Of a DNA stretch of 64,000 nucleotides, positions 28,301 to 52,448 are shown in pieces; positions within the stretch are counted from its first letter, which is position 1; every line of letters begins with the position of its first letter. The stretch is from NCBI GenBank assembly GCA_004124875.1, contig SCKJ01000001.1:434001-498000 (forward strand), written 5' to 3'. The translations under genes were made by a program, and so were the position numbers. The DNA is from Fidelibacterota bacterium (GTDB lineage: Bacteria > Fidelibacterota > Marinisomatia > SCGC-AAA003-L08 > TS1B11). The notes under the pieces were generated by a model. It saw only the letters and a program-made list of their open reading frames with translations. It was not told where the DNA came from and searched no databases.

Positions 28301-31300
28301 GGGGCGCCGTTTTGGACCAGGAGCATTGGAACCCGTATTTATGCCTCACCTGCGCTATCAATCGATGACTCGACTGTATATGTGGGCGGGTACGATGGGA
28401 AAATTTATGCAGTCAGCGTCGATACCGGTGGTGTACGGTGGTCTTACTCGACCGGGAGCCAGATATATGGCTCAGCCGCCGTTGATTCTTCAGGAGTTGT
28501 GTATGTGGGAGCGGCCAACGGCAATCTGTATGCCATCAATGGCGATGGGACGCTGAAATGGCAGTATGCCACAGGTGGCGCCATCTTCTATTCCTCACCC
28601 GCATTTGGAACAGGCGGTCAAATCTATATTGGCTCTGATGACAAGAGTTTACACGCCATAAAGCGCAGCGATGGAACCAGCCTATGGACTTATGCCACAG
28701 GAGGGGTTGTTAGAAACGCGCCCGCTGTAACCGCTGAGGGCAACATATACTTCTCCTCCGCTGACAGTAGCGTCTATGGACTTTCAACTTCTGGTAGCCT
28801 TGTATGGTCACGGAAAATCGGCGGCGCGGTCCAGTTATCATCCGTTGGGGTTGGCCCCATTGGGAACCTTTATGTGGGCGCCTATGACAACTATATGTAC
28901 AAGGTGGGCACAACAGATACGATTCCTCCTGCCGTTCCCCAGAACTTTGCCGCCCAAGGTGGAGATTTAGAAGTCACGCTAACCTGGTCATCTGCCCAAG
29001 AGTTCGATCTGTCGAAGTACATCCTGTATAGGAGCACTTCGGACGGATTCACGCCCCAGAGCAGTGATTCACTCGCACTGCCTGGAAAAAGCGACACGAC
29101 ATTTTGGGATACGACAGTCGTCAATGATGTCAGCTACTACTACCGCCTGGTCGCCCTGGACATTGCCGGGAATAGAAGTGCAGCCACGCCCCAAGTTGGA
29201 GCTACACCCACTGATTTGCCGCCGAGAATTCCGATCGACTTCGTCGCCAACAACGGAGATGGAGTTGTTGGACTGGGATGGTCGGCAAATACTGATCGGG
29301 ACTTGGCAGGATATGTTCTGTACCGCAGCGATCAAGCAGGATTCGTACCTGGCGCGAGCGATTCATTGACCTTTATTGCCAAGCCTGCAACGACTTACCA
29401 AGATAGTACGGTAATAAATGGGCTCACTTTTTACTATCGATTAAAAGCCGTCGACTTAACCGGATTTAGAAGCCTCGCAAGCGCCGAGGTTACAGGTGAA
29501 CCGAGAGATTTTACTCCGCCAGAGCCTCCCCAGAATGTAGCCGTAGCCGATGGTGATAAACAGGTTACTTTAAGCTGGACAGCCAACACCGAGCCCGATA
29601 TCGAGGGATACATCATTTACCGCAGTGAGGTTATCAATTTCACTGCCACAGATAACGATTCGCTAGGCATCACGCTCCATCCCCAAACCAGTTTTATCGA
29701 TACGGGATTGGTGAATGATCAGACTTACTACTATCGCATTGTGGCTGTCGATAGTTTGTGGAATAAAAGCGCGGTGAGCGATCAGCTGACAGGCCGGCCG
29801 ACTGATCAAACACCTCCTGCAGCGATTACCGATTTAACGATTACCAGCCAGACGTCAAGATCGATTTCTATCAGTTGGACAGCGCCAGGAGATGATGGGT
29901 CGACTGGAAGGGCCACAGAATATGATCTGCGTTATTCGTCAGCGACCATTGACGATCAAAATTTCGATAGTGCAACACGCGTCACAGCCGATGTCCCTGC
30001 GCCAGATACAGCTGGGATCTCCCAACTCTATACGGTGACCAGCTTGGACGCCAATACAACCTACTACCTGACGATCAAAACGGTTGATGATAAAGGCAAT
30101 GCCTCATCGATCTCAAATGTCGTAAGCAGTCTAACAGATGCCTTACCTGTGCTGTCGGATCGATCACCTTGGGGTAAGTTCCATCACGACCTGCAAAACA
30201 GCGGTTACACATCGATTCCGGGAACAGTGACCGACTCGGTCATCTGGGAGTATCCCACATTGAGCGTGGTTAATTCCTCACCCACAATCGACTGGGAGGG
30301 AGTCGTTTACTTTGGCTCAGAGGATGGATACGTTTATGCTCTTGATCCTACGGGGACCCTTAAGTGGAGCTATCAAACTGGCGGGGGAGTCTCGGCATCT
30401 CCCTTAGTCGCCACGCTGAACCGGCTCTATGTCGGCTCGAAAAGTGGCATATTTTACGGGTTTAACAGAGAAACTGGCGACACAGTGTGGACCTACCAGG
30501 TGGGCGATCAGATTATCTCATCAGCCACTGTGGACCATACCGGAAAGCTCTTTTTCGGTTCAATCAATGGAGTGTTGTACTCTCTTGATGCCGAGACAGG
30601 TGAATTGATCTGGCAGACATCATTGGGAAACAGGATATACGGGTCGCCGGCTCTCTCACATGATGACTCGACCCTCTATATCGGTGGATATGATGGGCTA
30701 ATCTATGCTGTTGGTACAAAAACGGGAACAGTGAAGTGGTCAAGATCTACGGGCAGTCCTATTTATGGGGCGGCGGCAGTGGATCCAGATGGCAATATCC
30801 TGATTGGCTCATCAAATGGAATTTTGTATGCATTAAGCCCAGTGGATACTCTCCTGTGGCAATATTCCGCGGGTGCTGCAATATTCTACTCATCCCCAAC
30901 AATAGGCTTGCACTCAACAGTCTATGTGGGGTCCGATGATAACAAATTGCATGCGGTAAACCTGAAAAATGGCGTCGGTAAATGGACCTATGCAGCCGCA
31001 GGGGACGTTCGCTCATCACCATTAGTAGCAGGCAATGGTCTTGTTTACTTTGCCTCGGGTGATAGCAATCTATATGCTGTCGATACAAGTGGCGCACTTT
31101 TCTTTAAGAGAAAATTAGGCGGAGCAGTTCAACTGTCTTCACCCGGCATTGATTTTGATGGAAATGTGTACATTGGGTCTTACGACAATATTATGCAGAA
31201 GATAGGATCGCCATTTGGAAGTCAGCTTGCAGTGCGGATATCATCAAATGGCATTGGCGAGGTCTCAGGGGACATCCCCATCGATTTCGTCATATCAAAC

Positions 31301-33460
31301 ACAGATCCAACACCAGTGGGGCTCCTTGCACAGTATTCGCTTGTTGAGGGCTCGTGGAACATAGCGACTGTTTCGGGAGATACTTCCCAAATTGCCTTCG
31401 CTAATTATGCCGGCCAGTTGATCTGGAGCACCGTTACAGATTTGCCCGGAGTTGACCAATCAGATATTCAGTTCAGACTCAGCCCTTACACCGATACCAC
31501 CGGTGTAGCTGACACCCTTGTATTCCAAATAGACAATAACCTGCCTCCTGGCATCATTCTGGATGAACTGGTGGGCGAACAATCTGGGGATATCACAATA
31601 CCATACCAGCTAGTAGACGCGGAGGGAGATTCTCTCGACATTCTTTCAGAATACTACAACAGTACCCTGCAGAGCTGGGTAAAGGCTGCGACAACTGGGA
31701 TCACTCAAGGTATCACCCAATATGGTGGCGCAATCCTCTGGAACAGTTTGAACGATTTGCCTAACGGCCTGGGGTTCTACGATTTTCGAATCTCGCCTAA
31801 GGATAATGACCCAGGAAGGGCCGATACTGTCACGATTTTAATTGACAACATTGGAGCGCCCGTACTAAGTCTCTCAGGGACTCCCGTTGAAGAAGTTTCG
31901 GGCGATATCACGTTTGGGTTTTCTGTCAATGATGATGAAGGAGATCCGATCTTCCTGATGGCAAGCTATTCCCTTAATTCCGGATCGACCTGGGTTAGCG
32001 CCACGGTTTCAGGCGATACCGCTCTGGCAGGTTCGACTCAGTACGCTGGTGGGGTAATTTGGCATTCGAATATTGATGCGCCGGGTTGGGACTTATTTAG
32101 TGCCCGGTTCAGTCTTGTACCCTCCGATTCTCGTGAAGGGTTGGGCGATCAAACCAGTGATTTTCACTTGGATAATAATGAGCCACCAAGTATATCAATT
32201 CAACTTCCCAGCGATACAATTTCTGCCTATGCCGACATCAGCTACAGCATCAGCGATGCAGAAAATGACACGATTTCCGTTCTTGCAGAGTATTCACTTG
32301 ATGGCAAAACTTGGGGTGTATCGACACTAACAGGAGATCGTACCAATGTATCTCAGTCCGGTTATTCTGACGTGACAACTTGGGATCTCATCACCGATAT
32401 CGGTTTTCATCGTCGCACTGGAGTCCAGCTCCGTTTTTCGCCTGCTGACAAGGATGTGGGTATTTCATCGAGTATCGAGAATGTTTCGATTTTGAATTAC
32501 GCCGGAGATTACAATGGCGATTTAATAATTGGCGTTGATGATTTGGTACATTTCGCAGCCGCGTGGAATGCAGATCCACAATACCTGACGTATGAGCTAG
32601 GTCCTGCAACGGGAGCCGTTCCGGATCTTATACCTGTAGTTGATGGCATCATGAATATTGAGGATCTTGCTGTCTTCGCGCAAATGTGGAATTGGAGTTT
32701 TGCCAATACCGGCTTCGCAAAATCGTTCCCAACCTTGGCAAAGACGATTACTTCGGAATCCTCTTTAAGGTTGATTCAGAAAATACCGGATGATATCTGG
32801 AGTTGGGACGGCAGGATTTTCATCAGGCTTGAAGGAGATTTATCGTCTAGTCTGATGATGGTTGAGGGGCTTCTCTCCGTGGATGGTTCGCAGATGCGAC
32901 TCGCACGCTTTTCAAATGGCGGGGCGATGGCTGAACACTGGTCATCAGTACCTCTGTTTATGCAGACCTCGGAAGATAGTAGCCAATATATCTTTGCCTT
33001 AGCCGGCCTTGGAGTACGAGAGTATGAAGCTGGGGGAGAAGACCTCCCGATTATGGTCTTCGAAGTTGATCTGACTGATCCAGGTACCCAAAATCTATCT
33101 ATGGACTACACGCTTTGGAACCGCAAAGGCGAGCCGGTCGAGTCTGGAACGATTAATCTTGAGGTTGAGAATCTCCTGCCGACTAAATATGCTTTGCACC
33201 AAAACTACCCGAATCCCTTCAATCCTACCACGACCATTAGGTACCAGCTACCGCGAGCCTCCAGAGTCCAACTGCGGGTATATAATTTGCTGGGGCAGGA
33301 GATTATTCGGCTGGTGGATAAAGATCTGGGACCGGGGTACCATCAGGTTATTTGGGACGGCAGGGACCGCTCTGGGCGAGCAGCATCCTCTGGTATCTAC
33401 ATAGTCAGATTGACTACGCAAGGATACGCCAAATCGATAAAATTGGTGCTGCTGAAGTAG
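25331..33460 (+). CDS. Giant T9SS protein: beta-helix, FN3, two PQQ propellers, dockerin-like
   Basis: 2,709 residues. Order: signal peptide (1-24); an Ig-like N-domain; a right-handed parallel beta-helix (about 155-610, IEPGVEVRFQP then Asn/Gly-rich rungs); two FN3 domains (614-835); a PQQ-type propeller (about 844-1195, starting WGKFHQDRQNSG with repeated YVGSxxGxLYA blades); four FN3 domains (1197-1600); a second propeller (1610-1960, WGKFHHDLQNSG); four SGDI-type Ig repeats (1964-2390); a dockerin-like pair of calcium loops (DYNGDLIIGVDDL and PVVDGIMNIEDL, 2391-2457); a beta domain; and a T9SS sorting tail (HQNYPNPFNPTTTIRY to the end). The two propellers are internal duplications. GTG start overlapping the cohesin gene. 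Probably a large cell-surface scaffold. Confidence 0.85.
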   Translation: MIDSRHALLITLAVFLTLGHLSAQTVTGFVTLTDVTGTEALNFPEGDTLYVKLVDSDRDLDNLIADQVSVSLSSAFESTTESLTLTETDLSSGLFMGWMLFDAVSGLAVTDGVLQVEQGNQLTVSYTDPADDFGNQSILTDNAYYNVSLASGIIAVNTTWTKATSPYLVTGDVTVNPNITLTIEPGVEVRFQPVSDDQSGGLDANRTELRIRGGTLRAEGTVTDSIIFTSNAEVPGTGDWYGIVQDSLNNGSINGHIIITYSRFEYHSVGIKVYQYADYSVVDTIRVEHSHFRQGGRVISSQNGGQRYIVFNDNLVDDGGGIYYPDQIRGAVIQRNIFNKSSIYFSSPDGAVQIRDNSFNGIGPNNSEWAINISWGRGAEITGNTLTSTQYGINVYGAYGGSYLIADNSLDSVYYAQIQIQQIPNITIRNNTITNGRNNDNSYAGIYIWNWDIYSTQAVIRGNTITGGNSPGMYLNRVSGIIDSNIVQNNTRGGIYLTGEFGYTSIDSILYNTITGNGAPYYGIYLNGYTRPVLQYNNLHDNASYDVYGNIAASTLETIDARFNWWGTTTTTAFNAGGNPKNIAKIYDLYDDATLGFVNYGQWLSMEVNITDILPPETIADLSASNPTSNTIDLTWTSPADDGASGNASNYELRFSSSTIDDANWGSATQVTTGVPTPATAGATEQMTVTGLSPSTAYYIAIKSSDGAGNVSALSNVTNSTTAPPDLTAPSAITDLALSQATSRTITLQWSAPGDDDAVGTAASYDVRLSLSAIDDNNFAAATAITENVPAPSVSGSSEQLLITGLEPYTTYYFAIKTSDEADNVSAISNIATGSTAEAPSFSPDLVWGKFHQDRQNSGRSPVNGAAQDTILWKFATGGVINSSPTLDAEGAIYFGSEDGNLYALNPDTTLKWSYDVGGGISAAPLLATLNFLYVGSKNGRFYAFNRATGDTIWSYNAGDQIISSATIDQGGRVYFGSINGTLYCLDSETGAPFWTRSIGTRIYASPALSIDDSTVYVGGYDGKIYAVSVDTGGVRWSYSTGSQIYGSAAVDSSGVVYVGAANGNLYAINGDGTLKWQYATGGAIFYSSPAFGTGGQIYIGSDDKSLHAIKRSDGTSLWTYATGGVVRNAPAVTAEGNIYFSSADSSVYGLSTSGSLVWSRKIGGAVQLSSVGVGPIGNLYVGAYDNYMYKVGTTDTIPPAVPQNFAAQGGDLEVTLTWSSAQEFDLSKYILYRSTSDGFTPQSSDSLALPGKSDTTFWDTTVVNDVSYYYRLVALDIAGNRSAATPQVGATPTDLPPRIPIDFVANNGDGVVGLGWSANTDRDLAGYVLYRSDQAGFVPGASDSLTFIAKPATTYQDSTVINGLTFYYRLKAVDLTGFRSLASAEVTGEPRDFTPPEPPQNVAVADGDKQVTLSWTANTEPDIEGYIIYRSEVINFTATDNDSLGITLHPQTSFIDTGLVNDQTYYYRIVAVDSLWNKSAVSDQLTGRPTDQTPPAAITDLTITSQTSRSISISWTAPGDDGSTGRATEYDLRYSSATIDDQNFDSATRVTADVPAPDTAGISQLYTVTSLDANTTYYLTIKTVDDKGNASSISNVVSSLTDALPVLSDRSPWGKFHHDLQNSGYTSIPGTVTDSVIWEYPTLSVVNSSPTIDWEGVVYFGSEDGYVYALDPTGTLKWSYQTGGGVSASPLVATLNRLYVGSKSGIFYGFNRETGDTVWTYQVGDQIISSATVDHTGKLFFGSINGVLYSLDAETGELIWQTSLGNRIYGSPALSHDDSTLYIGGYDGLIYAVGTKTGTVKWSRSTGSPIYGAAAVDPDGNILIGSSNGILYALSPVDTLLWQYSAGAAIFYSSPTIGLHSTVYVGSDDNKLHAVNLKNGVGKWTYAAAGDVRSSPLVAGNGLVYFASGDSNLYAVDTSGALFFKRKLGGAVQLSSPGIDFDGNVYIGSYDNIMQKIGSPFGSQLAVRISSNGIGEVSGDIPIDFVISNTDPTPVGLLAQYSLVEGSWNIATVSGDTSQIAFANYAGQLIWSTVTDLPGVDQSDIQFRLSPYTDTTGVADTLVFQIDNNLPPGIILDELVGEQSGDITIPYQLVDAEGDSLDILSEYYNSTLQSWVKAATTGITQGITQYGGAILWNSLNDLPNGLGFYDFRISPKDNDPGRADTVTILIDNIGAPVLSLSGTPVEEVSGDITFGFSVNDDEGDPIFLMASYSLNSGSTWVSATVSGDTALAGSTQYAGGVIWHSNIDAPGWDLFSARFSLVPSDSREGLGDQTSDFHLDNNEPPSISIQLPSDTISAYADISYSISDAENDTISVLAEYSLDGKTWGVSTLTGDRTNVSQSGYSDVTTWDLITDIGFHRRTGVQLRFSPADKDVGISSSIENVSILNYAGDYNGDLIIGVDDLVHFAAAWNADPQYLTYELGPATGAVPDLIPVVDGIMNIEDLAVFAQMWNWSFANTGFAKSFPTLAKTITSESSLRLIQKIPDDIWSWDGRIFIRLEGDLSSSLMMVEGLLSVDGSQMRLARFSNGGAMAEHWSSVPLFMQTSEDSSQYIFALAGLGVREYEAGGEDLPIMVFEVDLTDPGTQNLSMDYTLWNRKGEPVESGTINLEVENLLPTKYALHQNYPNPFNPTTTIRYQLPRASRVQLRVYNLLGQEIIRLVDKDLGPGYHQVIWDGRDRSGRAASSGIYIVRLTTQGYAKSIKLVLLK

Positions 33461-37489: not shown

Positions 37490-37512
37490 ACCAAAAAATG
37501 AAAGGAGGCCCT

Positions 37513-38628
37513 ATGCTGGCCACACTCAAACGCCTGCTGCCCATGGCCGAAAAGATCGTGGACCGAAGGTCATCGCTGCAGATACTGCGAACCATCTGTC
37601 TGGAAAACAAGATGGCTCGTGTCACCGATCTGGAGAGCACGCTGGTGGTGCCGATCAACAATGGTATCTCTGCGTGTCTGCCTCTTGATCTACTCAGGAA
37701 GCTGCTTAAATCCAAGCCTGCCAATCTGCAGATCGAGCCGTCCGGGTCCCGTCTAGTGCTGGTCCATGATGGCCGGCGGCTGAGCTTCAAAGGGCTACAA
37801 ACAGACGATTTTCCGGAGATACCATCCGGGAAGTTCAATGAGATTGGCAAGTGGCCTCGGGAGCTCTTTGGAGAGCTGTTGCTGCAGAGCCGGTTTACCT
37901 CGACAGATGAATTAAAACCGAGTCTTCAAGGCGTTCATCTGGTGCAGATCGGCAACGAGATCGAGACTCAGGCTACCGACTCGCATGTCCTTCGCTTTCG
38001 CCGTGGCCTGAAGATTAGTGCCGGCAAACCGTTTGAAGGGACTCTGCCGGTGAAACCGCTACAGCTATTGGCGCGGATCGCCAAAGGCAATACCACCGTG
38101 GCTGCGTCGAGCGATCATCTGCGCTTTTCACTCCCCGGCGGAATCACGCTCTACGTCCGCCTATTAAGCGAGAAATACCCGGATGTGGCAAGCGTCATCC
38201 CCAAGGCGTTCACCGGTAGCGCTGTTGTGAATCGGGAGGAGTTGCTGACCCTGGTCAATGCGGCCACGCCGTTTGCAGATAAAGAGACCAACCTGATGAT
38301 GCTCGAGACCGGAGAAGGTTCAGCGATCATGACCGTTGAAAACCAGCAGGTAGAGACGAAGTGGGAGGCGACCCTGAAGCTCTCTGAACAACAAGGTGGC
38401 ACTCTGCGCATCGGCTTCAACTTAAAATTGCTCGAGCGAGTGCTGTCGCTGCAGCAGTCACCAACCGTCCTTTGGCAGTTTACGAATCAATCAAGCGCCT
38501 CCATGTTTACCGAGATTGGTGAGCAGTGGGAGTCCGGCGCTCAAACCATCATAATGCCTATTCGACTAAAAATGGAGAAAACTCATGAAAACGAAAAACG
38601 TGATCATCGACAAACCGCAGCAGCTTAG
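37513..38628 (+). CDS. DNA polymerase III beta subunit (sliding clamp) homologue
   Basis: 371 residues, close to the usual 366. Clamp features in order: ILRTICLENKMARVTDLE (domain 1 opening), an EIP segment near residue 105, LQGVHLVQIG, ATDSHVLRF, LPVKPLQLLARI, LPGGITLYVRLLSEKYPDVASV, then FADKETNLMML and the terminal IIMPIRL, the counterpart of the conserved C-terminal MPMRL. The protein forms a ring around DNA that tethers polymerases. After MPIRL come about 19 extra residues that overlap the next gene, so the natural stop has probably been lost. An element-borne clamp is unusual; it probably serves element replication. AAAGGAGG sets the start at 37,513. Confidence 0.83.
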   Translation: MLATLKRLLPMAEKIVDRRSSLQILRTICLENKMARVTDLESTLVVPINNGISACLPLDLLRKLLKSKPANLQIEPSGSRLVLVHDGRRLSFKGLQTDDFPEIPSGKFNEIGKWPRELFGELLLQSRFTSTDELKPSLQGVHLVQIGNEIETQATDSHVLRFRRGLKISAGKPFEGTLPVKPLQLLARIAKGNTTVAASSDHLRFSLPGGITLYVRLLSEKYPDVASVIPKAFTGSAVVNREELLTLVNAATPFADKETNLMMLETGEGSAIMTVENQQVETKWEATLKLSEQQGGTLRIGFNLKLLERVLSLQQSPTVLWQFTNQSSASMFTEIGEQWESGAQTIIMPIRLKMEKTHENEKRDHRQTAAA

Positions 38629-40058: not shown

Positions 40059-40108
40059 TTCAAATCAGGCGGGCTTGTCTAGCCTGCCCCTCAATCATAA
40101 CTTGCCAA

Positions 40109-40226
40109 TGTAACACGATCAGTAGTCTACGATAGTACCGAGCAATTACCCATAACAGAAAGACTCGGGGGAAGAATCCTCTGCAGCCGCCTGTAATGGG
40201 TAGCTCGGGCTATTGATCGTGTTACA
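40109..40226 (+). ncRNA. Long imperfect hairpin, candidate regulatory RNA
   Basis: TGTAACACGATCA (40,109-40,121) pairs with TGATCGTGTTACA (40,214-40,226), 13 base pairs that extend to about 20 with wobbles. Inside, CCGAGC (40,138-40,143) pairs with GCTCGG (40,203-40,208), TACCCAT (40,147-40,153) with ATGGGTA (40,196-40,202), and ACAG with CTGT, with a GGGGGA/TCCTCT apical hairpin. No known riboswitch class is recognised. It lies 106 bases before the start of the CsgG-like gene. A transposon-derived (MITE-like) palindrome is the main alternative; no target-site duplication is visible. Confidence 0.55.
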
Positions 40227-40250
40227 ACTGTCGATACACCTGGGTCTGGC

Positions 40251-40331
40251 TGCAGGGGATTTTTCATTCTCCTGCAAATGGCTCCGGTTTCTGATGGTGA
40301 GTTCTTGCAACACGATCAACGGAGTCCTATC
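40251..40331 (+). promoter_or_regulatory. Leader with hairpin, alternative pairing partner and start region
   Basis: TGCAGGGGA (40,251-40,259) pairs with TTCTCCTGCA (to 40,276). Further on, AACACGATCA (40,309-40,318) repeats the left arm of the big hairpin and could pair with TGATCGTGTT (40,214-40,223) instead. That second pairing would run to within two bases of the GGAG ribosome-binding site (40,321-40,324) of the CsgG-like gene. Confidence 0.45.
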
Positions 40332-42122
40332 ATGATCATCAAACCAAAACGCCGAGATTTCTTGCTGTCCCTGCTGTTACTGAACACTGTCGCGGCCCAG
40401 AAACTAGAGAACATCACTGTCCTGCCTTTTAGCGGATGGACCGGAAATGCCAGATCTGCGCAGGAGTATCAGAACGCTCTCACCGATAAAATCGCCACCA
40501 AGATCATTCAGTCTCACCGCTTTAACGTCATCGACCGGACCCACTTGGACAAGGTGCTTGCCGAGCAGGATCTGCATCTGACTGGCCTCATAGATGAGTC
40601 CACAGCTGTGCAAATGGGCAAAATAGCGGGAGTGAACAAGCTCATTATCGGCAGTTTCACCCGCAGCAGCACGGAACTACATAAAGCCGTCTATTCCAGT
40701 GGACAAAAAATCTCTGACGCCTACTACTCGGCAGTGGTACAGACGTCCATCAAACTGCTCGATGTGCAGAGCGGGCGTTACCTGGAGGCAGCTGAAGCCG
40801 AAGGTACGGGCAAGAGCTCGGACCAACGCAATGCTCTGCTCAATGCGCTTGATGAAGTTGCTGCAGCGGTCATCACGAGCTTTGAGAAGTACTTCGCTAT
40901 CCAGGCCGTGATCACATCGGTAGACAAGGCCAGGGTCACCTTGAACCGCGGTTCGATGGGCGGCGTAAAAGCAGGGATGGACTTTCTGGTTTATGACCTG
41001 CCGATTACGCCGGGCCAGGCCATGCCGACAATCGAATCAGGCAACGAGTCCATTGGCATTGTTCGTATCATCTCAGCCGAGAGCGAATCGGCCCTTGGCA
41101 GAATAATGGCTGGCTTTGACAAGGTGCAGGCCGGCCATCTTATTAGGGAGACCAAGACTGAGGTGAACACCCTGGCCATGGTACTGGACAAGACCGGCAA
41201 GCAGGTCATTATCAATGCGGGCATCGATCTAGGCATCAAAGCAGGCATGACTTTCGATGTTGTCACCGCTGGCCGGGAGATCACCGACCCGATGACCGGC
41301 GAGGTATTCCGTACTTCACCAGTCAAAGTCGGCATCATCTACATCACCAATCCCGGCACTCGTTCATCTGAGGCGAAGATCATCAAGGGTCAGGAAAAGA
41401 TTGATGCAGGTATGTGGATATTGGAGCGGGAGACGGCCATGGTCAGCGTCTCTGCATCTCTTTCAGTTGGGCTCCTCAGCGCCAATTTTGCGCCCAACAC
41501 GGTTGTCGACACGTTCACCGTTAATAACAAGTTCACCGGCATCCATGAGGTGATTGTCGATTACTCCGATTATGAACCCATTACCGGTGGCCTGGTATTT
41601 CAACTAACAGGCGTGCGCCGGGACCTGGTGCAGGGGTACTCGGTTGGTTTTGCCTTTAACTATTTCAGCTATACGGGCGATGTGAGCGCCTGGGCACTGG
41701 ATATAATGGCCACATATGACCTTGCGCTGGTGCCTGATAGGCTCACGATTTCGCCAGGTCTAACAATAGGTTACGGTATTGCCTCACAGGATCTGCCAGG
41801 CGGAATTGTTGCCCAAATCAGCGACAATGTCAGTTCGTCCTTATCCTCCGGCGGCATATCGATCACGCCACAGGTGAGCCTGCAAGCAAAGATGGGGAGC
41901 CTGACCATCACCGGCGACATCGCCTACCGCCTCTGGAACATCAGTAGTTGGTCTTATGATGTGAACACCGGCAAAAAGGATGACTCTGGAAATGATGAAA
42001 CCGAATCCTTTGAGCTCGATCCTGGCATGATCCCCTACCCTGAAATATCCGTGGGAGGCCTCTACTTCACTTTCGGTCTCTCGATTGAGGATTTCTGGTC
42101 GAAGATGACCAATCTGTTTTAA
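40332..42122 (+). CDS. CsgG-like exported protein with C-terminal beta-barrel-like half
   Basis: 596 residues. Signal peptide MIIKPKRRDFLLSLLLLNTVAAQ; then a CsgG/FlgO-like domain (NITVLPFSGW, KIIQSHRFNVIDRTHL, GKIAGVNKLIIGSFT, about residues 25-200). A middle segment (RVTLNRGSMGGVKAGMDFLV, twice repeated as VIINAGIDLGIKAGMTFDVV) resembles FlgT-type C-domains. The last 200 residues have alternating beta strands ending in LYFTFGLSIEDFW, as in an outer-membrane barrel. Homologues act in secretion or anchoring of surface fibres. GGAG is eight bases before the ATG 40,332; an upstream in-frame ATG at 40,278 lies inside the structured leader and is rejected. Confidence 0.78.
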   Translation: MIIKPKRRDFLLSLLLLNTVAAQKLENITVLPFSGWTGNARSAQEYQNALTDKIATKIIQSHRFNVIDRTHLDKVLAEQDLHLTGLIDESTAVQMGKIAGVNKLIIGSFTRSSTELHKAVYSSGQKISDAYYSAVVQTSIKLLDVQSGRYLEAAEAEGTGKSSDQRNALLNALDEVAAAVITSFEKYFAIQAVITSVDKARVTLNRGSMGGVKAGMDFLVYDLPITPGQAMPTIESGNESIGIVRIISAESESALGRIMAGFDKVQAGHLIRETKTEVNTLAMVLDKTGKQVIINAGIDLGIKAGMTFDVVTAGREITDPMTGEVFRTSPVKVGIIYITNPGTRSSEAKIIKGQEKIDAGMWILERETAMVSVSASLSVGLLSANFAPNTVVDTFTVNNKFTGIHEVIVDYSDYEPITGGLVFQLTGVRRDLVQGYSVGFAFNYFSYTGDVSAWALDIMATYDLALVPDRLTISPGLTIGYGIASQDLPGGIVAQISDNVSSSLSSGGISITPQVSLQAKMGSLTITGDIAYRLWNISSWSYDVNTGKKDDSGNDETESFELDPGMIPYPEISVGGLYFTFGLSIEDFWSKMTNLF

Positions 42123-42202
42123 TCCCAAGATTATTATCTCAAATCGAGATTGATTCAACATACTTGATAAAAATTAATACTGTCTATAAGGAGGGAACCC
42201 TC

Positions 42203-43288
42203 ATGAAACACACACCTAGTAATTTTATTTTTTTATTGCTGATAATTGGATGTGATATGGGAAGCACCGATTCGATTTATCGCGAGAATCTCCAAAGGAC
42301 TGGAGTATCGATAGAAGATCCAATTGGTGATAATCCCAACGTGAGTCTTTTGAGTGATTGGTTATGGACCCAGGAGCAGATGGCATCCCCCGTAATATCC
42401 GGCGGATCTATCATAAGCGGCGGCTTGACCATCTCAAAACTGAAAGCGACGGACGGCGAACTTAAATGGAGCAAGAATGCCCCCGGTCGGTTCGTTACCG
42501 GAACACCGATTATTTCTGGTAAGCAAATATTTTTCCTCTCCGGCCAAAGCTATCTGAGTGCGTTTAGATTGAAGGATGGCGAGAAACTCTGGTCCACCAA
42601 AGTGGCGCCTGTTTGGCAGGTCATCTCACCCCTCGTTGTCGATGGCAGAGTCATAATCTCAACATCGGAATCAACCGTATTGGCATTTGACCAAGATGAC
42701 GGAAGATTGTTGTGGCGGCATGCGCTCGATGGCAAGTCATACACTTCAGCCTCATATAATAACAATATCGTCTATGTCGGTTCAATGGCAGGAGCCTATG
42801 CCTTAAATGTTGGAGACGGTTCAGAAGTTTGGCATACTCCCAATTACCACATAGTAACAATCATCGTCTATTCCGACAACCATTTATATTATGGAATAGG
42901 CGAGGGAGACATTATTGCGCTGGATGCCTCAAATGGCGAACTGTTATGGAAGTATAACACTGGGAGTGAGATTTCTTCATCTCTTGCCGTGGACCAGACC
43001 TCAATATATGTGGGCAATGCGGGAGGAAAATTAGTAAGCATTGAGAAACAGACAGGCTCCTTACAATGGTCTTACGATGTTGACACTCTCATTCGCTCCT
43101 CATCAACTGTTGCTGGTGATGTTATTTACTTTGGAGATATGAATGGGGTAGTGCACGCATTGGATAAATACAGTGGCCAAAAAATATGGACCGTCGACGT
43201 CGGTGGGCCTATTCGAGTATCGCCGACTCTTTCTAAAGACGGACTCATCGTCTACACTGATGAAGGGGACCTCTACAGGCTAAAATAA
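42203..43288 (+). CDS. PQQ-repeat beta-propeller lipoprotein (BamB-like fold)
   Basis: 361 residues. Signal with lipobox (LLLIIGC), so lipidated at Cys. The body is a seven- or eight-bladed PQQ-type propeller: repeats such as KATDGELKWSK, RLKDGEKLWSTK, ALDASNGELLWKYNTG and ALDKYSGQKIWTVDVG. The fold is that of BamB, a scaffold for protein contacts. It closely resembles in style the two propellers of the giant dockerin protein, so a related surface complex is plausible. AAGGAGGG precedes ATG 42,203. The transcription unit ends at the terminator at 43,313. Confidence 0.83.
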   Translation: MKHTPSNFIFLLLIIGCDMGSTDSIYRENLQRTGVSIEDPIGDNPNVSLLSDWLWTQEQMASPVISGGSIISGGLTISKLKATDGELKWSKNAPGRFVTGTPIISGKQIFFLSGQSYLSAFRLKDGEKLWSTKVAPVWQVISPLVVDGRVIISTSESTVLAFDQDDGRLLWRHALDGKSYTSASYNNNIVYVGSMAGAYALNVGDGSEVWHTPNYHIVTIIVYSDNHLYYGIGEGDIIALDASNGELLWKYNTGSEISSSLAVDQTSIYVGNAGGKLVSIEKQTGSLQWSYDVDTLIRSSSTVAGDVIYFGDMNGVVHALDKYSGQKIWTVDVGGPIRVSPTLSKDGLIVYTDEGDLYRLK

Positions 43289-43649: not shown

Positions 43650-45053
43650 ATGCCCGCAATAACGACATCAGCAACGCGTGAAATAATCGATGATTTCGCG
43701 CAGGAAATTCAGCATCGATTGACAAAAACTCCGAAGCCATCCATGGAAGTGATCAATTTTAGAAATGAAACAAAAGAAAAGCGTGAACGACCGATAGTTA
43801 GTGTCCCCATCGAAATTCTTCGATACAGGAAGAATAATGGGCGTATAGCCTCAGATGTTCTCGATCACGAGCGAAATGTAGGTATGTTGGATGAAAAGGA
43901 TGAACTTTCCCAAGAGACGATAAGAGATTTTCTTGAGAAGAAAGACCCGGAGCGCACGGAAGTCCTAAAGAAAGACATCATTCATAAGGGGCAACGGGAA
44001 CCCGCAATTATAACTTGTGATGGTTTCCTCGTCAATGGCAATCGCCGAAAAATGGTGCTTCAGATGCTCCAGCATGAGTTCCCCAACGAGGATGAGTACA
44101 GATTTATGAACGTCGTAATCTTGCCAGGAAAAAATGAAGAGGGAGGCCCACCGACACTACTCGAAATTGAACAGATTGAAAACCGCTACCAACTCCAGAG
44201 TGACGGTAGATCAGAATATTACGGATTCGATCGTGCCCTATCTATCGAGAGGAAAATTGAATTTGGATTCTCTCTTGAGGCTCAGTTGCGTGACGATCCA
44301 CAATATGTGAATGGCACACCCAAGGAAATCAAGATAGCAGTTAAAGAATATCAAAAGAAATATATTCAGCCGCTAAGATGTGTTGATCGATACCTTGCCC
44401 AGTTTGGACGTGAAGGACTTTATCGAACAATCTCGACAGGAATGTCGGACCCCGAAGGCCGTTGGCAGGCATTTATTGACTACAGCAATGCCTATATGAG
44501 CATTTTCAGCAATCCAAAAAATCTTTTAAAGTTTGGAATCGAGGAAGATGAAATCGGCGAAATTGAGGAGGCTGCTTTTGATATTATTAGACTCCGAACA
44601 GTGCCTGACATGCCTAAGGTTCATACAATTATGCGGAATTTACCCAAGTATTGTCGCACCAACGAAGGCAAGAATGCTATTAAATCGATAGCGCAAAAAG
44701 TAGGCCCCATTTTATCAAGTGAGGAATCAATTGATGAGAACGGCAAACATTTATCGATCCAAGAAATTGATGCAAAATGGGCTGCCAAAAACATCGAGAC
44801 GATCACCTATCACATCAAGACTGCATCGCGAAGCCATGAATCATTGAAGGAAAGGGAAACACCGCTTGAGTTACTAGAAGCAGCGTATAAAAAACTCACA
44901 CATGAAGACATGGATCTGGAGTCAATAGCGATCAATGATCTTGATAAGGCCCGGAAGTTGGCGGTAAAAGTTAAAAATCGTGCTAGCGACTTAGAGAGCC
45001 AAATATATCACTTCAAGAAAGATTTAAAACGCCTTAAGAATAAAAAGTCGTGA
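43650..45053 (+). CDS. ParB-like nuclease-domain protein of a defence-like operon
   Basis: 467 residues. Residues 48-140 form a ParB N-terminal-like domain: IVSVPIEILRYRKNNGR, an inserted charged loop, then PAIITCDGFLVNGNRRKML-type sequence with the NGNRR box (129-133) of ParB-fold proteins. The rest is helical and ends in a coiled coil of Lys-rich residues (DLESQIYHFKKDLKRLKNK). It has no partition helix-turn-helix. AAGGAG precedes the ATG, and its stop overlaps the helicase start (GTGA). In defence contexts ParB-like proteins act as ATP- or CTP-dependent sensors or nucleases; the role here is inference. Confidence 0.75.
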   Translation: MPAITTSATREIIDDFAQEIQHRLTKTPKPSMEVINFRNETKEKRERPIVSVPIEILRYRKNNGRIASDVLDHERNVGMLDEKDELSQETIRDFLEKKDPERTEVLKKDIIHKGQREPAIITCDGFLVNGNRRKMVLQMLQHEFPNEDEYRFMNVVILPGKNEEGGPPTLLEIEQIENRYQLQSDGRSEYYGFDRALSIERKIEFGFSLEAQLRDDPQYVNGTPKEIKIAVKEYQKKYIQPLRCVDRYLAQFGREGLYRTISTGMSDPEGRWQAFIDYSNAYMSIFSNPKNLLKFGIEEDEIGEIEEAAFDIIRLRTVPDMPKVHTIMRNLPKYCRTNEGKNAIKSIAQKVGPILSSEESIDENGKHLSIQEIDAKWAAKNIETITYHIKTASRSHESLKERETPLELLEAAYKKLTHEDMDLESIAINDLDKARKLAVKVKNRASDLESQIYHFKKDLKRLKNKKS

Positions 45054-46945
45054 TCAAGATTCTGACTGAGGGTGATCAACTGGTGATTCAAGTAGAGGAA
45101 GGAGACCTGGAGCCACGTCATGCCAGTCAATTTGTATATTGGGGCTTCGAGTATGATTCAAAGAGAAGAAGGTATACCGCGCCTGAAGCAGGCAAATTAA
45201 CATTATTACAAAAAGTGACTGCTTATCTGGAAAAATCTGGGCATTCTCCCCGACTCAGTGCAGAATTAGAGTCAGTCCTCCAAAGAATAAAGACTGCCGA
45301 AATAGCTCTGAGTATGGCACTTGATGCCGGAATGAAACTTAAAGATGGGGCGGTCGACATGCTTAAGGCCCAGGAGTTTAGCGACTATCTAAAAATGAAT
45401 TTGCCACGACGGTTGAAAGAACATCAGATAAAAGCGGCCCTCCACTTATTGGCGGTTCAAAACGGTGCGAATTTTTCGGTGCCTGGAAGTGGTAAAACAA
45501 CGGTCGTCTTGGCTGTATTCCATCTACTCCGGCATCTCGGAGAAGTCGATGCTCTATTTGTTGTTGGTCCACCAGCCTGTTTTGGTCCTTGGCGGACCGA
45601 ATACAAAGAAACGCTAGGCAAATCGCCCACCTATGAAATACTTGCTGGAGGCAACGTAGATGATCGCCGCACAAAGTACTTAGTCAATCCGGACTCCGTT
45701 TGTGACCTATACCTTACAACCTTCCAAACGCTCCAACGGGATTGGGAGAAAGTGCGCATACTTTTCGAAAAACAAGGTGTCAAATTCTATTTGGTGGTGG
45801 ACGAAGCCCATTACATCAAGCAAATTAACGGTGCTTGGGCAGAGGCAGTTTTGAACGTGGCGAGTCATGCGGTGCGTAGAACAATTCTGACTGGTACTCC
45901 ATACCCCCAATCCTACGCTGATGCCTTTAATCTCTTTGATGTTCTATGGCCGGAGCGCCCTCCTATATCTGCCACGGATCGCCACAGGGTGCAGTATCTC
46001 ACACAGAAAAACCACCTGCCTGAGGCTGCCGAAATCCTCAAAGAAACAGTTGGGCCGTTATTCTATCGAGTACGCAAACCCGATTTAGGGCTTGCACCTC
46101 AGATATTTCATGCACCGATACAAATAAAAATGAACAAATATGAAAGACTCGTATATGACTCGATCCTGGATAAAATACAGGAACTCTCGCAATCAGATTA
46201 TTTCCGAGATATTGATCTGCTCATGCGCTTACGCAGGGGTAGAATGATACGCCTGCGTCAATGTGTTTCATACTCAGCACTACTTAGATCAGCCATAACT
46301 GAGTACACTGAAAACCTTCTTGAAGGCGATATGGCGCTTTCTGATGTTATAATGCGCTACGATGAACTTGAGACTCCGGGGAAAATTGAGACGTTGTTAC
46401 CAATTCTTCAGAACCTATTGGATCGTGGTGAAAAGGTAGTCATCTGGTCAAATTTCGTACAAACCCTGGAATTGTTATGTGAAAGAGCGAATACTTCAGA
46501 TCACCATTCTAAATTGATCTACGGCGCGACACCAATCCAATCCACAAATTTCAGTGATGAGATGACACGGGAAGAAATCATCCAGCAGTTTTTGCGCCCT
46601 GATAGTGGGGTGGATGTGCTCGTTGCAAACCCTGCGGCATGTGCAGAATCTATATCATTGCACAAGTCATGCTCTTATGCGATCTACTACGACCTTTCGT
46701 ATAACAGTGCACAATACTTACAATCTCTTGATCGAATTCATCGCGTCGGCGGATCGGAAGACAAATCCGCGAATTACATATTCCTCCAATATGAGAATAG
46801 CATTGATGCGGATATCTTATCGAATGTCAGGACGAAAGCGGAAAATATGAGCCAAGTAATTGATCTGGATTATGCTATCTATTCACTTGATATGTTTGAG
46901 GAAGATGAAGAGCTGGGGGCTTATGCGAGAATCTTTAACAAATAA
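45050..46945 (+). CDS. SNF2-type superfamily 2 helicase/translocase
   Basis: 631 residues. Walker A VPGSGKTT (residues 144-151), DEAH box with HYIK (251-257), motif III TGTP (281-284) and the C-terminal lobe with VVIWSNFVQTLELL and QSLDRIHRVGG (motif VI arginines). This is the SNF2/Rad54-like family of double-stranded-DNA translocases. A 110-residue N-domain of unknown fold precedes it. The GTG start overlaps the ParB-like stop; its own 3' end overlaps the nuclease gene by 23 bases. In the operon it probably couples ATP hydrolysis to DNA scanning for the neighbouring nuclease and methylase. Confidence 0.9.
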   Translation: MIKILTEGDQLVIQVEEGDLEPRHASQFVYWGFEYDSKRRRYTAPEAGKLTLLQKVTAYLEKSGHSPRLSAELESVLQRIKTAEIALSMALDAGMKLKDGAVDMLKAQEFSDYLKMNLPRRLKEHQIKAALHLLAVQNGANFSVPGSGKTTVVLAVFHLLRHLGEVDALFVVGPPACFGPWRTEYKETLGKSPTYEILAGGNVDDRRTKYLVNPDSVCDLYLTTFQTLQRDWEKVRILFEKQGVKFYLVVDEAHYIKQINGAWAEAVLNVASHAVRRTILTGTPYPQSYADAFNLFDVLWPERPPISATDRHRVQYLTQKNHLPEAAEILKETVGPLFYRVRKPDLGLAPQIFHAPIQIKMNKYERLVYDSILDKIQELSQSDYFRDIDLLMRLRRGRMIRLRQCVSYSALLRSAITEYTENLLEGDMALSDVIMRYDELETPGKIETLLPILQNLLDRGEKVVIWSNFVQTLELLCERANTSDHHSKLIYGATPIQSTNFSDEMTREEIIQQFLRPDSGVDVLVANPAACAESISLHKSCSYAIYYDLSYNSAQYLQSLDRIHRVGGSEDKSANYIFLQYENSIDADILSNVRTKAENMSQVIDLDYAIYSLDMFEEDEELGAYARIFNK

Positions 46946-47876
46946 ATTCGATGCATTTCAAGGACTTGAATGGCACAATGTTCTTGAGTTGCTAGAGGTT
47001 CTTCAAGGAAATAAATATAATAAGAAGGACTATATCAAACAGAGGTATAGTTCACAAGCATCAAATTTTAGTGAAACGCTTGCTTTTGCCGTCTCGCTCG
47101 GCGCAATACAAGAAGAGAATGGGCGTGTTCGATCCCTCAAAATATTTCAATCTTCCAATGAGGCTAAAATTCACGATTGGTTTATTAAGCGTATTTTAAA
47201 ACGCCGAAGCCGCTACCGGACACGGATATTCCAATACTTGCGTTTGTTCTGTATTACAGATGGGCAACCTACATACTGTCCCCCGTCTGTATCCCGACAC
47301 AAGGATAGCCATGTTAGAAACGTCCTTATGGAACTGGGAATCGTATCATATGATGAAAAGCATGACTCCTATCAAATATCAAATCAATATTTTGACCATT
47401 ATGCGTTGGCATGTGATAGCGCTAAAATTAAGAAGCCCGAAACACTGCGTGCCTCGATCCGCTCCAGGGAATTAATTGGTTTGGCAGCGGAAAAAGCCGT
47501 CATGTTATTCGAACAAAGCCGATTGGGTAGTAACTTTGCTAATCGTGTCAAGCATGTTGCTTTACAGAATTCCTCGGCCGGCTATGATATACGAAGTGTA
47601 ACGATTGAGGATGGCGGTGTCATTATCCCAAGATATATTGAAGTAAAAGCCGTTTCGTTCTCATCTTTTCAATTCCATTGGACTCGAAATGAGGTCCATG
47701 TGGCAAGACAGTTAGCAGATTGGTATTTTCTGTATTTGATCCCCGTAAAGGGCCATTCTCGCTTTATCAGCCGCGAGATTAAAATTATTGCCAATCCGCA
47801 TTCTGTGGTTCTTCGAACACCTGGCACTTGGCTTGTCGAACCTGATGTATTACTATGCTGTCTTCGAGAAGAATAA
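46923..47876 (+). CDS. DUF3883-like protein with PD-(D/E)XK nuclease signature
   Basis: 317 residues from ATG 46,923 (GGGGG just upstream, overlapping the helicase gene). The C-terminal half matches DUF3883: GLAAEKAVMLFEQSRL, VKHVALQNSSAGYDIRSV, RYIEVKAVS, then HWTRNEVHVARQLADWYFLYLI. Glu190, Asp222, Glu240 and Lys242 fit the PD-(D/E)XK metal-dependent nuclease layout. The N-terminal 150 residues are helical and may read DNA or contact the helicase. An earlier in-frame ATG at 46,860 lies inside the helicase gene and is rejected. It is probably the effector nuclease of the operon. Confidence 0.8.
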   Translation: MRESLTNKFDAFQGLEWHNVLELLEVLQGNKYNKKDYIKQRYSSQASNFSETLAFAVSLGAIQEENGRVRSLKIFQSSNEAKIHDWFIKRILKRRSRYRTRIFQYLRLFCITDGQPTYCPPSVSRHKDSHVRNVLMELGIVSYDEKHDSYQISNQYFDHYALACDSAKIKKPETLRASIRSRELIGLAAEKAVMLFEQSRLGSNFANRVKHVALQNSSAGYDIRSVTIEDGGVIIPRYIEVKAVSFSSFQFHWTRNEVHVARQLADWYFLYLIPVKGHSRFISREIKIIANPHSVVLRTPGTWLVEPDVLLCCLREE

Positions 47877-47945
47877 TTGACTTTTGAAAAGATTCTCCCC
47901 ATGACAACTGAATATATATCGCCCACCCATACAGAAGAATCACTG

Positions 47946-48854
47946 ATGGCAAAACCCGTCAAAGCACCATTTGGCTACTATGGTGCTAAGCAAAATATTG
48001 CCCGAAAGATAATCAACACTCTTCCACCACATAATGCATGGGTGGAAGGATTCTGCGGTTCTGCAGCGCTTACGCTTGCTAAGCATCCGGTTCCGATAGA
48101 AGTTATCAATGACCTTGATGGACAGATTGTGAATCTATTTAACCAACTTCGTAATAATAGCGAGGCTCTTTGTAGGGCAGTTGCACTCACACCCTATGCG
48201 CGAGAAGAATTCGAGCAGGCACGTGCACCATTTGGTGCAGATCTCGATCCTCTTGAACGCGCTCGGAGATTTCTTGTCAAGACCATGATGACCGTAAATG
48301 GCACATATGGGTCATCAGGAAGTGGATTTTCTTATTCTTCTTCATATGCAAGGGAGGGAAAAGAAGCCCGTGTGAATCGTTGGTATAACTTGCCAGCACG
48401 TCTTGAGAAAGTTGTAGATCGACTCCGTGGGATACGAATAGAAAACCGCGATGCCCTTGAACTAATTGAGATGTTCAGAAACCGTCCTGCAACCCTAATG
48501 TATCTTGATCCACCCTACTACACTCAAACCGATCATAAGTACGTGATTGATGCAAACGATAGGCAGTTCCACTTGAATTTGCTTAAGGCCTGCAAGAGGG
48601 CCCGTTGCATGCTACTCATTAGCGGATACGAGAACGATTTGTATGATGAACAATTGACTCAGGAGGATGGGTGGAAGAAGTGGATCATTGAAACCCACAC
48701 GCGCGATACTTCAGGGAAAAGTTACGCACGATCCGAAGTACTGTGGATGAACAGGCAGTTTCAAAAGGCCAAATTGCAAGGAAAAATCCCGATCCTCTTG
48801 AGGAAGAAGGAGCGATATGATAACAAAATCAATCCGCCACGAGGAAGGGATTAA
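47946..48854 (+). CDS. DNA adenine methyltransferase (Dam/D12 class)
   Basis: About 302 residues from ATG 47,946. The opening VKAPFGYYGAK is the usual start of D12 methylases, followed by the SAM-binding VEGFCGSAAL (33-42) and the catalytic DPPY (188-191, LMYLDPPYYTQ). A Ser/Tyr-rich loop (GSSGSGFSYSSSY) may be the target-recognition hairpin. It methylates N6 of adenine, normally in a short palindrome such as GATC; the site cannot be predicted. Alternative starts (TTG 47,877, ATG 47,901) would add residues with no family counterpart. As the last gene of the ParB-helicase-nuclease operon it probably protects host DNA. Confidence 0.93.
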   Translation: MAKPVKAPFGYYGAKQNIARKIINTLPPHNAWVEGFCGSAALTLAKHPVPIEVINDLDGQIVNLFNQLRNNSEALCRAVALTPYAREEFEQARAPFGADLDPLERARRFLVKTMMTVNGTYGSSGSGFSYSSSYAREGKEARVNRWYNLPARLEKVVDRLRGIRIENRDALELIEMFRNRPATLMYLDPPYYTQTDHKYVIDANDRQFHLNLLKACKRARCMLLISGYENDLYDEQLTQEDGWKKWIIETHTRDTSGKSYARSEVLWMNRQFQKAKLQGKIPILLRKKERYDNKINPPRGRD

Positions 48855-48977
48855 TCGAATTATTGCTTATGCTGCTTCAGGAGCTGGCGATCGGAATTCC
48901 CCTGTTTTCCTTAATGAGCGAACCGTACTTTTATAATAATAGGCACCACAATTCTTACGTTTAATTTGTGAACAAAC

Positions 48978-49886
48978 TTGAATAATCCGCCGACGCTCGT
49001 ATTATTTCGAAACCACCCTAAAAGCCAGATTTTGAATGAACAGCTTCTCAGCTCACTGCAAGCGCTGGAAACGTGCTACTTCTTAATTGCTCTCGGTAGA
49101 TTTCCTCATGCACTGACGACCTGTGCGATCTCCATTGAGAGCGCAATGCAAGCCTCTTCAACTCTGATGATGACGGCTAAAAATTCGTTACAAGATGGAT
49201 TTAAAAAGGCAAGGAAATTGCGAAATGGGTTCAACGAGATTAGTTCTGATAAATTTGAAAGATTCAGGGTAGCTCGGAATCGAATAACGCATGAAGGCTT
49301 CAGTCCAAAGGATGATGATGAATCGGCTCGACTACTAATCGAAGTAGGGTTTCCGTTACTCTTGCTCTGTTACCGCGAATTGCATTCCTTTGATCTAATG
49401 GATGCACTCATTGTTGAGTTGAATGAGCATCTCCAAATCGCAAATAGAGTATACAAGCTTGTAAGAAAGGATAAAAATCTCCATAATATTGAAATTCAAT
49501 ACTGTTTTGACAGTTTCGCTCAATGTCTCCGGCTTCAATTAAAGGGAAATTTTTTACCCGATTGGGAAGAGGATGTGCTAATCAAATCGGAGAACATTGG
49601 TACAAAATTTGGGGCGATGGAATTAATTCTTAACAAAGTTTCAGACTTGTTTGGAGATTACGAAAGATTTAACTGCCCCGTATGCCAAGATGTTGACTCA
49701 GTGCTTGGATCAATCGACATGGATTACCTTCACTTGGGGGATGTATTAATTCAAAGAATGGTTTGCGGCTCATGTGGTTTTACAATCGGATTTGGGAAAC
49801 CACATTTAGCCATGGAATTGCTCCGAGAACAGATTGATAAGGTGGAGTCGAAAATATTGAAAGAGTATGGCATTAATCAAACCTAG
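48978..49886 (+). CDS. HEPN-domain protein with C-terminal zinc ribbon
   Basis: 302 residues. A helical domain contains VARNRITHEGF, where R100-N101-...-H105 fits the Rx4-6H active-site motif of HEPN ribonucleases. The C-terminal third has CPVCQ near residue 235 and CGSCGF near 265, a zinc-ribbon pair. HEPN proteins act as toxins or RNA-cleaving defence effectors. The start is TTG 48,978; no better codon exists in frame. It lies 123 bases after the methylase on the same strand and overlaps the following gene by 20 bases, so it heads a second small operon. Confidence 0.65.
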   Translation: MNNPPTLVLFRNHPKSQILNEQLLSSLQALETCYFLIALGRFPHALTTCAISIESAMQASSTLMMTAKNSLQDGFKKARKLRNGFNEISSDKFERFRVARNRITHEGFSPKDDDESARLLIEVGFPLLLLCYRELHSFDLMDALIVELNEHLQIANRVYKLVRKDKNLHNIEIQYCFDSFAQCLRLQLKGNFLPDWEEDVLIKSENIGTKFGAMELILNKVSDLFGDYERFNCPVCQDVDSVLGSIDMDYLHLGDVLIQRMVCGSCGFTIGFGKPHLAMELLREQIDKVESKILKEYGINQT

Positions 49887-50175
49887 AGCCCTCCAATATT
49901 TTAAGAAGTACGGACTTCTCGAGACTATAAAATGGGTTGAAGAAGATTTACGGAATACCTCCAAAGCGGACCTTGAGCTGCTCTCAACCGTGGACTTTGC
50001 CACCCTCGAGTTGGACAGAGAGGGGAATGCTATTTCAGTGATAACCGTACGCGACCTTATCGCCAGCGAACCTGAATGGGCAGCCAAACTGGACCAGGAG
50101 CCGTTCTCGGGCGAGAATATCGCCACGGCATTGAAGAAGCTGGGAGAGTTGTTTGGGGATGGGGAAACAAGTTGA
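49867..50175 (+). CDS. Unknown small protein after the HEPN gene
   Basis: 102 residues, mainly helical and acidic (WVEEDLRNTSKADLELL, EPEWAAKLDQEPF). The ATG lies inside the HEPN gene, and the stop overlaps the next start (TGATG). No family. It could be an antitoxin-like partner of the HEPN protein by position, but nothing in the sequence shows this. Confidence 0.5.
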   Translation: MALIKPRALQYFKKYGLLETIKWVEEDLRNTSKADLELLSTVDFATLELDREGNAISVITVRDLIASEPEWAAKLDQEPFSGENIATALKKLGELFGDGETS

Positions 50176-50789
50176 TGAAGGCAAATCCATGGTGGCTTTA
50201 CTTAACAACGATTGTCAGCATAGCGATCGCGGTCCGTCTTTCAACGCTACCATTGCCTGCGCCAATCTTTAGTCTACCAGTGTTTGCATTAGCAATCTGG
50301 CAGATCAAGGAGATACTATCACGGTCAATAGCCCACCACGATAGAATTGTGGAGAGAGAGAATGATCGATTGCAGGAAAAAGCGGCTCAAACTCTAAAGC
50401 TGGCCAGCGATCAAAACCTAGAAGCGCGCTGGTCGATACAGGAACTATGGGAGAGAACTGTCTGGCTAGCCAAAAACTTCAAAGAATTATGGCCAGGTGG
50501 AGATAAATCCCAAGACCGAATCGATGGGTATTTAAGCAATCTTCAGGATTACGATGAGTTCTTGACCAACGAATCAATCAATCTGCCAAATACCATCAGG
50601 GAACCAGCCCAGACGATTTTCCAATCAATCCATGAATATAAAAGAGGGAAAGATATGAGATGGGATCCACCTTATGATCCCGAATACAGCTTAGAGGGCG
50701 GCAAGATGATGTCCTCGGGCGCAAAGAGCTTGAATAAGGCTTTTGGCGAGCTTCAGAAAGCGATACGGGATGAATATGGGGTGGAGTGA
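50175..50789 (+). CDS. Membrane-anchored protein of unknown function
   Basis: 204 residues from ATG 50,175, overlapping the preceding stop. Residues 8-45 hold two close hydrophobic helices (WWLYLTTIVSIAIAV, IFSLPVFALAIW), followed by a long charged cytoplasmic part (RIVERENDRLQEKAAQTLKL) with coiled-coil character. Membrane-anchored proteins with such tails are frequent in abortive-infection modules, but no family is recognised here. It is part of the HEPN-HNH run. Confidence 0.6.
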   Translation: MKANPWWLYLTTIVSIAIAVRLSTLPLPAPIFSLPVFALAIWQIKEILSRSIAHHDRIVERENDRLQEKAAQTLKLASDQNLEARWSIQELWERTVWLAKNFKELWPGGDKSQDRIDGYLSNLQDYDEFLTNESINLPNTIREPAQTIFQSIHEYKRGKDMRWDPPYDPEYSLEGGKMMSSGAKSLNKAFGELQKAIRDEYGVE

Positions 50790-50800
50790 GGACATGCCAG

Positions 50801-51814: not shown

Positions 51815-51885
51815 GCCATGACCAGTGGAATGCTGCCAATATCAATTTTATAGAAAAAGTCAATTTCGCGGCAAATTCTGCTTAA
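51793..51885 (+). CDS. Possible 30-residue protein
   Basis: A 30-codon frame with GGGGAA seven bases before its ATG, overlapping the end of the HNH gene. It ends IEKVNFAANSA; a related string (KKINFDTNPA) follows the stop codon of the gene at 52,449-52,868. The shared ending, with several third-position changes, suggests that the 30-base repeats were once coding. Weak evidence for expression. Confidence 0.25.
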   Translation: MARTEGVGHDQWNAANINFIEKVNFAANSA

Positions 51886-51911
51886 AGGGTAGAACAACAA
51901 AAGGAGCGCCA

Positions 51912-52382: not shown

Positions 52383-52448
52383 GATGGGGATTCGAGCTAC
52401 GGCGTTTGATATGAGATACATGTGGCCAGCCGAAACGGAGCAGAGACA

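Follow-up and report, generated by a model that had tools for sequence, protein, structure and literature searches.

The window, by which we mean the entire 64,000-nt stretch of DNA analysed here, harbors an integrative island of 37.7 kb bounded by 45-bp perfect direct repeats (att; 19928–19972 and 57657–57701), of which the right copy lies in tRNA-Met with a tyrosine integrase (56925–57713) beside it. The genes of the island include that for a divergent DNA polymerase III β clamp (DnaN; 37498–38628), which is conserved beside RadC in the related G001 island. They also include genes for NOV_C, D12 methyltransferase, HNH and Mrr-type proteins (46860–53953), which, together with a SNF2 helicase (45050–46945) and a 467-aa protein with no Pfam match (43650–45053), look like a restriction or defence cluster. 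The subject of this work is another cargo element of the same tRNA-Met island, a predicted conserved, pseudoknotted RNA of ~157 nt and the genes 3′ of it:

40075..40103, + strand: promoter TTGTCT-17-TAACTT, ending 5 nt upstream of P1
40109..40265, + strand: structured RNA, from the predicted transcript start (40109) to the end of the U-tract (40265); based on homologues, covariance models, covariation and checked segmentation
40109..40125, + strand: P1 left arm (complementarity, swap test, covariation)
40138..40143, + strand: P2 left arm, CCGAGC (folding, covariation)
40147..40158, + strand: P3 left arm (swap test, covariation)
40162..40169, + strand: segment a (GACTCGGG), partner of a′ (40239–40246), its 3′ part also beginning the local a-b hairpin (swap test, covariation)
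40176..40188, + strand: segment b (ATCCTCTGCAGCC), partner of b′ (40248–40260) or part of the local a-b hairpin
40191..40202, + strand: P3 right arm (swap test, covariation)
40203..40208, + strand: P2 right arm, GCTCGG (folding, covariation)
40210..40226, + strand: P1 right arm (complementarity, swap test, covariation)
40239..40246, + strand: segment a′ (CCTGGGTC) (swap test, covariation)
40248..40260, + strand: segment b′ (GGCTGCAGGGGAT) (swap test, covariation)
40250..40276, + strand: hairpin around the T-run, offering b′ another partner (sequence reading, MFE fold); similar in G001, not general
40260..40264, + strand: U-tract 3′ of b′, possibly a point of intrinsic termination; it overlaps b′ by one base, its first T
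40309..40318, + strand: third copy of AACACGATCA, specific to the window
40332..42122, + strand: CsgG-like exported protein (Pfam CsgG, 7.2e-15), the putative controlled gene, with the ribosome-binding site (RBS) GGAG at 40321–40324
42164..43288, + strand: PQQ/BamB-like propeller lipoprotein (Pfam PQQ_2, 1.7e-40), probably of the same operon

The start listed for the CsgG-like gene among the open reading frames (40278) is too early, the RBS indicating ATG 40332 as the likely one. The preliminary description of this DNA had recognized the CsgG-like character of the gene, to which the Pfam match attests, and had placed a 118-base hairpin in its leader. On the + strand this stretch (40109–40226) folds at −60.3 kcal/mol (z −8.6, with no shuffle as stable), while the − strand has a weaker excess stability (z −6.5), and its 17-nt, 94% complementary arms lie exactly where they had been described. 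The hairpin is thus real, but it is only the larger part of the conserved object, which extends to 40265. From 5′ to 3′ the latter comprises P1 left, a linker, P2, P3, a, a short loop, b, P3′, P2′, P1′, a short linker, a′, b′, and a T-rich tract. Two further helices, a·a′ (6–8 pairs) and b·b′ (7–13 pairs; all 13 of 13 positions are paired in the window), connect the apical loop to the 3′ tail, crossing P1–P3. The linkers measure 3–12 nt between P1 and a′ and, on one side only, 4–28 nt between P1 and P3. The copy in G002 additionally has another a′ sequence (ATACCTGAGTATG) in its P2-P3 linker (L069, about 7295–7310) and a b-like TTTCCCCC downstream of b′.

No match to the window RNA was recovered with the covariance models of the 4227 families of Rfam 15, either at gathering or at relaxed thresholds, in keeping with the earlier impression that no known class fits; a search with six further loci (L048, L075, L077, L078, L082, L046) likewise returned nothing above the cut-off over the RNA, and the sub-threshold matches there are weak and at chance level. 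Our literature search found no paper describing such an RNA in Marinimicrobia. A dispersed repeat unrelated to the gene (REP, MITE), which the preliminary description had named as one of two observations that would count against it, was rejected: the source genome has a single full-length match to the palindrome, and no genome has more than two (G054). A coding explanation was likewise set aside on reading the sequences, since stops close the open frame that spans the RNA in G049, G221, L059, and G095 (HSGETSPGSDPQGLFG) in the window, G001, and G002.

Besides the window copy we retrieved 16 relatives, 15 of them in Neomarinimicrobiota and one in a Desulfobacterales MAG. DNA searches of related genomes yielded G001 (same genus), G004, G095, G049, G221, and G002; a gapped pattern scan of genome contigs added the Desulfobacterales copy (L059); and two covariance models added G054 (two copies, the second hereinafter G054b), G114, G058, G232, G144, G129, G229, and G131. 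Of these, G004 is cut by a contig start and G095 is decayed. A covariance score with E of 0.1 or below was reached by approximately 15 of 245 Neomarinimicrobiota genomes, almost all of which have a single copy, and a few of the weakest such matches (e.g., G140) were left out of the count of relatives. We also set aside as unconvincing the weak covariance matches L079, L080, L081, and L102, and dismissed as chance the pattern-scan matches in Enterobacteria, Dehalococcoidia, Aminicenantes, and Alphaproteobacteria, which have neither P1 nor the tail structure. The distribution of the RNA is therefore sparse and accessory. Among the 395 Desulfobacterota searched, the single MAG with L059 was the only positive; the stretch that it has in common with the Neomarinimicrobiota loci is only 290–390 bp, which fits horizontal transfer, and the copy may alternatively be Neomarinimicrobiota DNA contaminating the MAG. 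We found no sign of viral spread, there being no match among the viral contigs, phages, or plasmids searched.

The copies were segmented by hand, and the joined segments were compared to the real DNA in 11 of them. The sequence of P1 is almost wholly different from copy to copy, yet it pairs in all except the decayed G095. In a partner-swap test, P1, P3, a·a′, and b·b′ were each best matched within their own copy, all of 50,000 permutations being worse (an earlier run on the first 11 copies used 20,000), and for the local a-b hairpin only 4 of 50,000 swaps were equally good. When 15 copies are aligned without gaps, 97.3% of the cells are paired and 37 of 45 pairs show two-sided change (8 of the 12 aligned pairs in b·b′), with covariation in P1–P3 as well as in the long-range a·a′ and b·b′ helices. 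The covariation score is 0.62, as against 0.20 in shuffled alignments (0 of 500 as high) and no more than 0.09 when the controls are slid; this alignment, with its trimmed, N-padded linkers and hand-chosen register, is biased toward structure, while the swap test and the complementarity within single copies are independent of it. Covariation over homologous leaders, one of the checks that the preliminary description had suggested, thus yields strong compensatory change. On this comparative evidence, the window element and its relatives constitute a real, new, and well-supported family of structured RNAs with five covarying helices, two of them crossing, and, judging from its position, a regulatory leader.

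The G·U pairs outnumber A·C mismatches by 35 to 4 (p=3e-7), from which it follows that selection acts on the sense RNA and neither on double-stranded DNA nor on the antisense strand. This asymmetry bears on the idea of a DNA-level element, that is, a cruciform or a recombination site for the exchange of cargo cassettes. The comparison of the islands would be compatible with it: the window and G001 have the same core genes 5′ of the RNA (DnaN-like, RadC, and a 63-aa ORF) and diverge immediately 3′ of it into differing cargo, and the RNA with a gene, or with about 190 nt, is common to distant genomes. Nevertheless, the constraint is not symmetric between the strands as in a cruciform or att site, the distance to the promoter is fixed, and a cruciform would have no need of the a′ and b′ pseudoknots, leaving this explanation hardly tenable. 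The copies in G001, G004, G232, and G054b each have an integrase or a DUF5906 primase-type protein in their vicinity. As to the ~190 nt 3′ of the RNA, the conserved stretch there in L065, L061, L048, and even the Desulfobacterales copy L059 contains an apparent terminal fragment of a receiver domain from a response regulator (MTAYLNTEL...RLFEKPFKKRVLIGKVR).

Of the 16 copies, 13 have a motif of the form TTG-N20-TAnnnT whose end falls within 3–7 nt, and in fact at 4–5 nt, 5′ of P1; the control rate is 0.2%. In form it is similar to the TTG / TAnnTTTG promoters known from Bacteroidetes; a scan for E. coli-type promoters did not list the window promoter (40075–40103). At the other end, the T fraction over the 7 nt 3′ of b′ is 0.76, as opposed to 0.35 over the next 50 (16 copies), with imperfect U-tracts in G054, G054b, G232, G229, and G131. 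The next gene is codirectional with the RNA in all 15 readable cases, usually at a distance of 42–200 nt, and its product is exported or lipoprotein-like in 13 of 15 (signals judged by eye). These first genes code for an LPP20-like lipoprotein (G001, G004, G054; the Pfam match, in G054 only, is slightly below the cut-off), a Fib_succ_major lipoprotein (G058), Sel1 (G232), LamG (G129), a T9SS-type propeller or β-helix (G095, G221, G229), an OMP barrel followed by CsgG (L059), a small exported protein (G144), and a membrane-anchored HNH (G131); in G049 a short ORF precedes a large exported protein, and in G054b the ORF is non-exported and cytosolic-looking. The RNA is hence linked to exported-protein cargo generally, not to CsgG specifically; the functions are heterogeneous, and the gene context points to no ligand or regulator. 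The island has a second surface-protein cargo (23269–33460: a CsgG/PEGA/DUF5683 protein, a 283-aa ORF, and a 2709-aa ORF), without this RNA upstream.

The promoter and the U-rich 3′ end could also delimit an independent, trans-acting small RNA of ~157 nt that has a terminator of its own and is merely a frequent neighbor of the gene within the cassette, the more so as four copies (G049, G221, G095, L059) are about 250–480 nt from the next gene with conserved DNA between. We consider this unlikely, while giving it real weight: the gene is always codirectional and mostly too near for a second promoter, and a comparison of the window with G001 shows the RNA retained before exchanged cargo.

We instead tentatively favor, with somewhat less than even confidence, a cis-acting pseudoknotted leader that serves as a transcription attenuator for the exported-protein cargo of mobile islands. 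The RNA, its helices, the promoter, and the codirectional gene can be read in the sequence, and we infer from them termination and switching, perhaps by a ligand, along the following lines. Segment b has two prospective partners, the 3′ part of a with the loop (CAGGGGAA) locally and b′ at long range. In the OFF state, a′ would capture a, freeing b for b′, and the GC-rich b·b′ stem abutting the U-tract would act as an intrinsic terminator. In the ON state, the local a-b hairpin would be kept, its 5′ arm CAGGGGAA mimicking b′, so that no terminator forms and transcription reads through into the gene. P1–P3 would be the sensing module for a metabolite, protein, or other signal. P1 could coexist with a·a′ and b·b′ only if P3 folds back beside it, as the large one-sided linkers would permit; alternatively, if P1 and a·a′ are incompatible, P1 itself may be one side of the switch. 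An intrinsic terminator stem is expected to abut its U-tract, and the b·b′ stem has an invariant G-C immediately 5′ of the tract, while the weak a′-b′ hairpin ends 2–4 nt too early; for this reason we assign termination to a·a′ with b·b′ and read-through to a-b.

The swap test, covariation, the competing a-b hairpin, the G·U excess, the promoter spacing, the U-rich tract, and the near codirectional gene with its mostly exported product all support this attenuator. Against it stand the b·b′ loop of ~60 nt, the imperfect U-tracts, the four distant genes, the heterogeneous cargo, and the cytosolic-looking follower of G054b. The loop, long for an intrinsic terminator, accounts for the terminator scan of the window finding none. 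A related possibility is an unconditional leader that provides processive antitermination or mRNA stabilization for long acquired surface-protein operons. EAR, put, and ops/RfaH are such 5′ leader elements of surface or horizontally acquired operons, EAR being pseudoknotted. Our RNA shares with them the tie to such operons and, with EAR, the pseudoknotting; the otherwise unrelated functions of its mobile exported-protein cargo and the large pseudoknotted 5′ structure beginning at the promoter would fit such a leader. It differs in lacking a sequence or covariance match to them in Rfam and in having a terminator-like tail. The a-b hairpin competing with b·b′, plus the U-tract, indicate a conditional device, and we regard an unconditional leader as improbable.

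The preliminary description had proposed an RNA switch of another sort, in which the right arm of P1 would have two alternative partners, the left arm and a copy before the RBS, so that the RBS is exposed or hidden. This copy, the third of AACACGATCA, does lie two bases 5′ of GGAG and 13 nt 5′ of ATG 40332, and is improbable by chance (0 of 500 shuffles have a 10-nt exact copy within 110 nt 3′ of the RNA). However, it is absent from all 13 other relatives whose 3′ flank is long enough for the comparison, and we accordingly rejected it as a general switch. Moreover, the arm excludes the RBS itself, the 17 pairs of P1 are far more stable, and TTGCAACACGATCAA agrees at 15 of 15 bases with the right arm of P1 in G004 when the latter is reverse-complemented. 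The third copy may thus have been left behind by another copy of the element, or have been added locally to the control in one strain, and translational control by it appears very improbable. What stands of the proposed switch is the structured leader, its compensatory evolution, and the existence of mutually exclusive pairings, albeit different ones: the conserved alternatives of a-b versus a·a′ with b·b′, the latter entering the U-tract by way of b′, suggest that control is exerted on transcription and not by occluding the RBS.

The RNA is akin to pseudoknotted transcription-terminating riboswitches and attenuators in being a structured leader close to the promoter, with pairings that compete, a U-tract 5′ of the gene, and a codirectional target. 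Covarying, aptamer-like, and located in a 5′ leader, its conserved structure is of the kind expected of a riboswitch, and the a-b hairpin may be an exclusive alternative to a·a′ with b·b′ and the U-tract. The RNA differs from such systems in having no known ligand or Rfam match, in being sparse and mobile, and in that its targets are linked by export rather than by pathway. It also recalls the orphan candidate structured RNAs of comparative genomics, which covary in a conserved genetic context with function unassigned, but is absent from the Rfam families. In an evenly poised judgment, it may stand for a previously undescribed class of regulatory RNAs with pseudoknots, perhaps riboswitches whose ligand is yet to be discovered or sensors of host state, which mobile islands would use as an exchangeable control leader in front of any surface-protein cargo. 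This would suggest how such islands control foreign surface or secreted proteins, by means of one promoter-bearing RNA leader with exchangeable cargo. To our knowledge, there has been almost no RNA biology of the Neomarinimicrobiota phylum so far; the pairing scheme allows exact compensatory mutants to be designed, and the gene context makes a search for the ligand or regulator feasible. Finally, the long rod-like form and own promoter are reminiscent of 6S RNA (RF00013), but a symmetric central bubble is missing from the window RNA, whose tail takes part in two pseudoknots. We rejected this identity; the sole match to RF00013 in the source genome is elsewhere (C16:64792–64966; 37.2 bits, below the cut-off) and is probably the 6S RNA of this organism.
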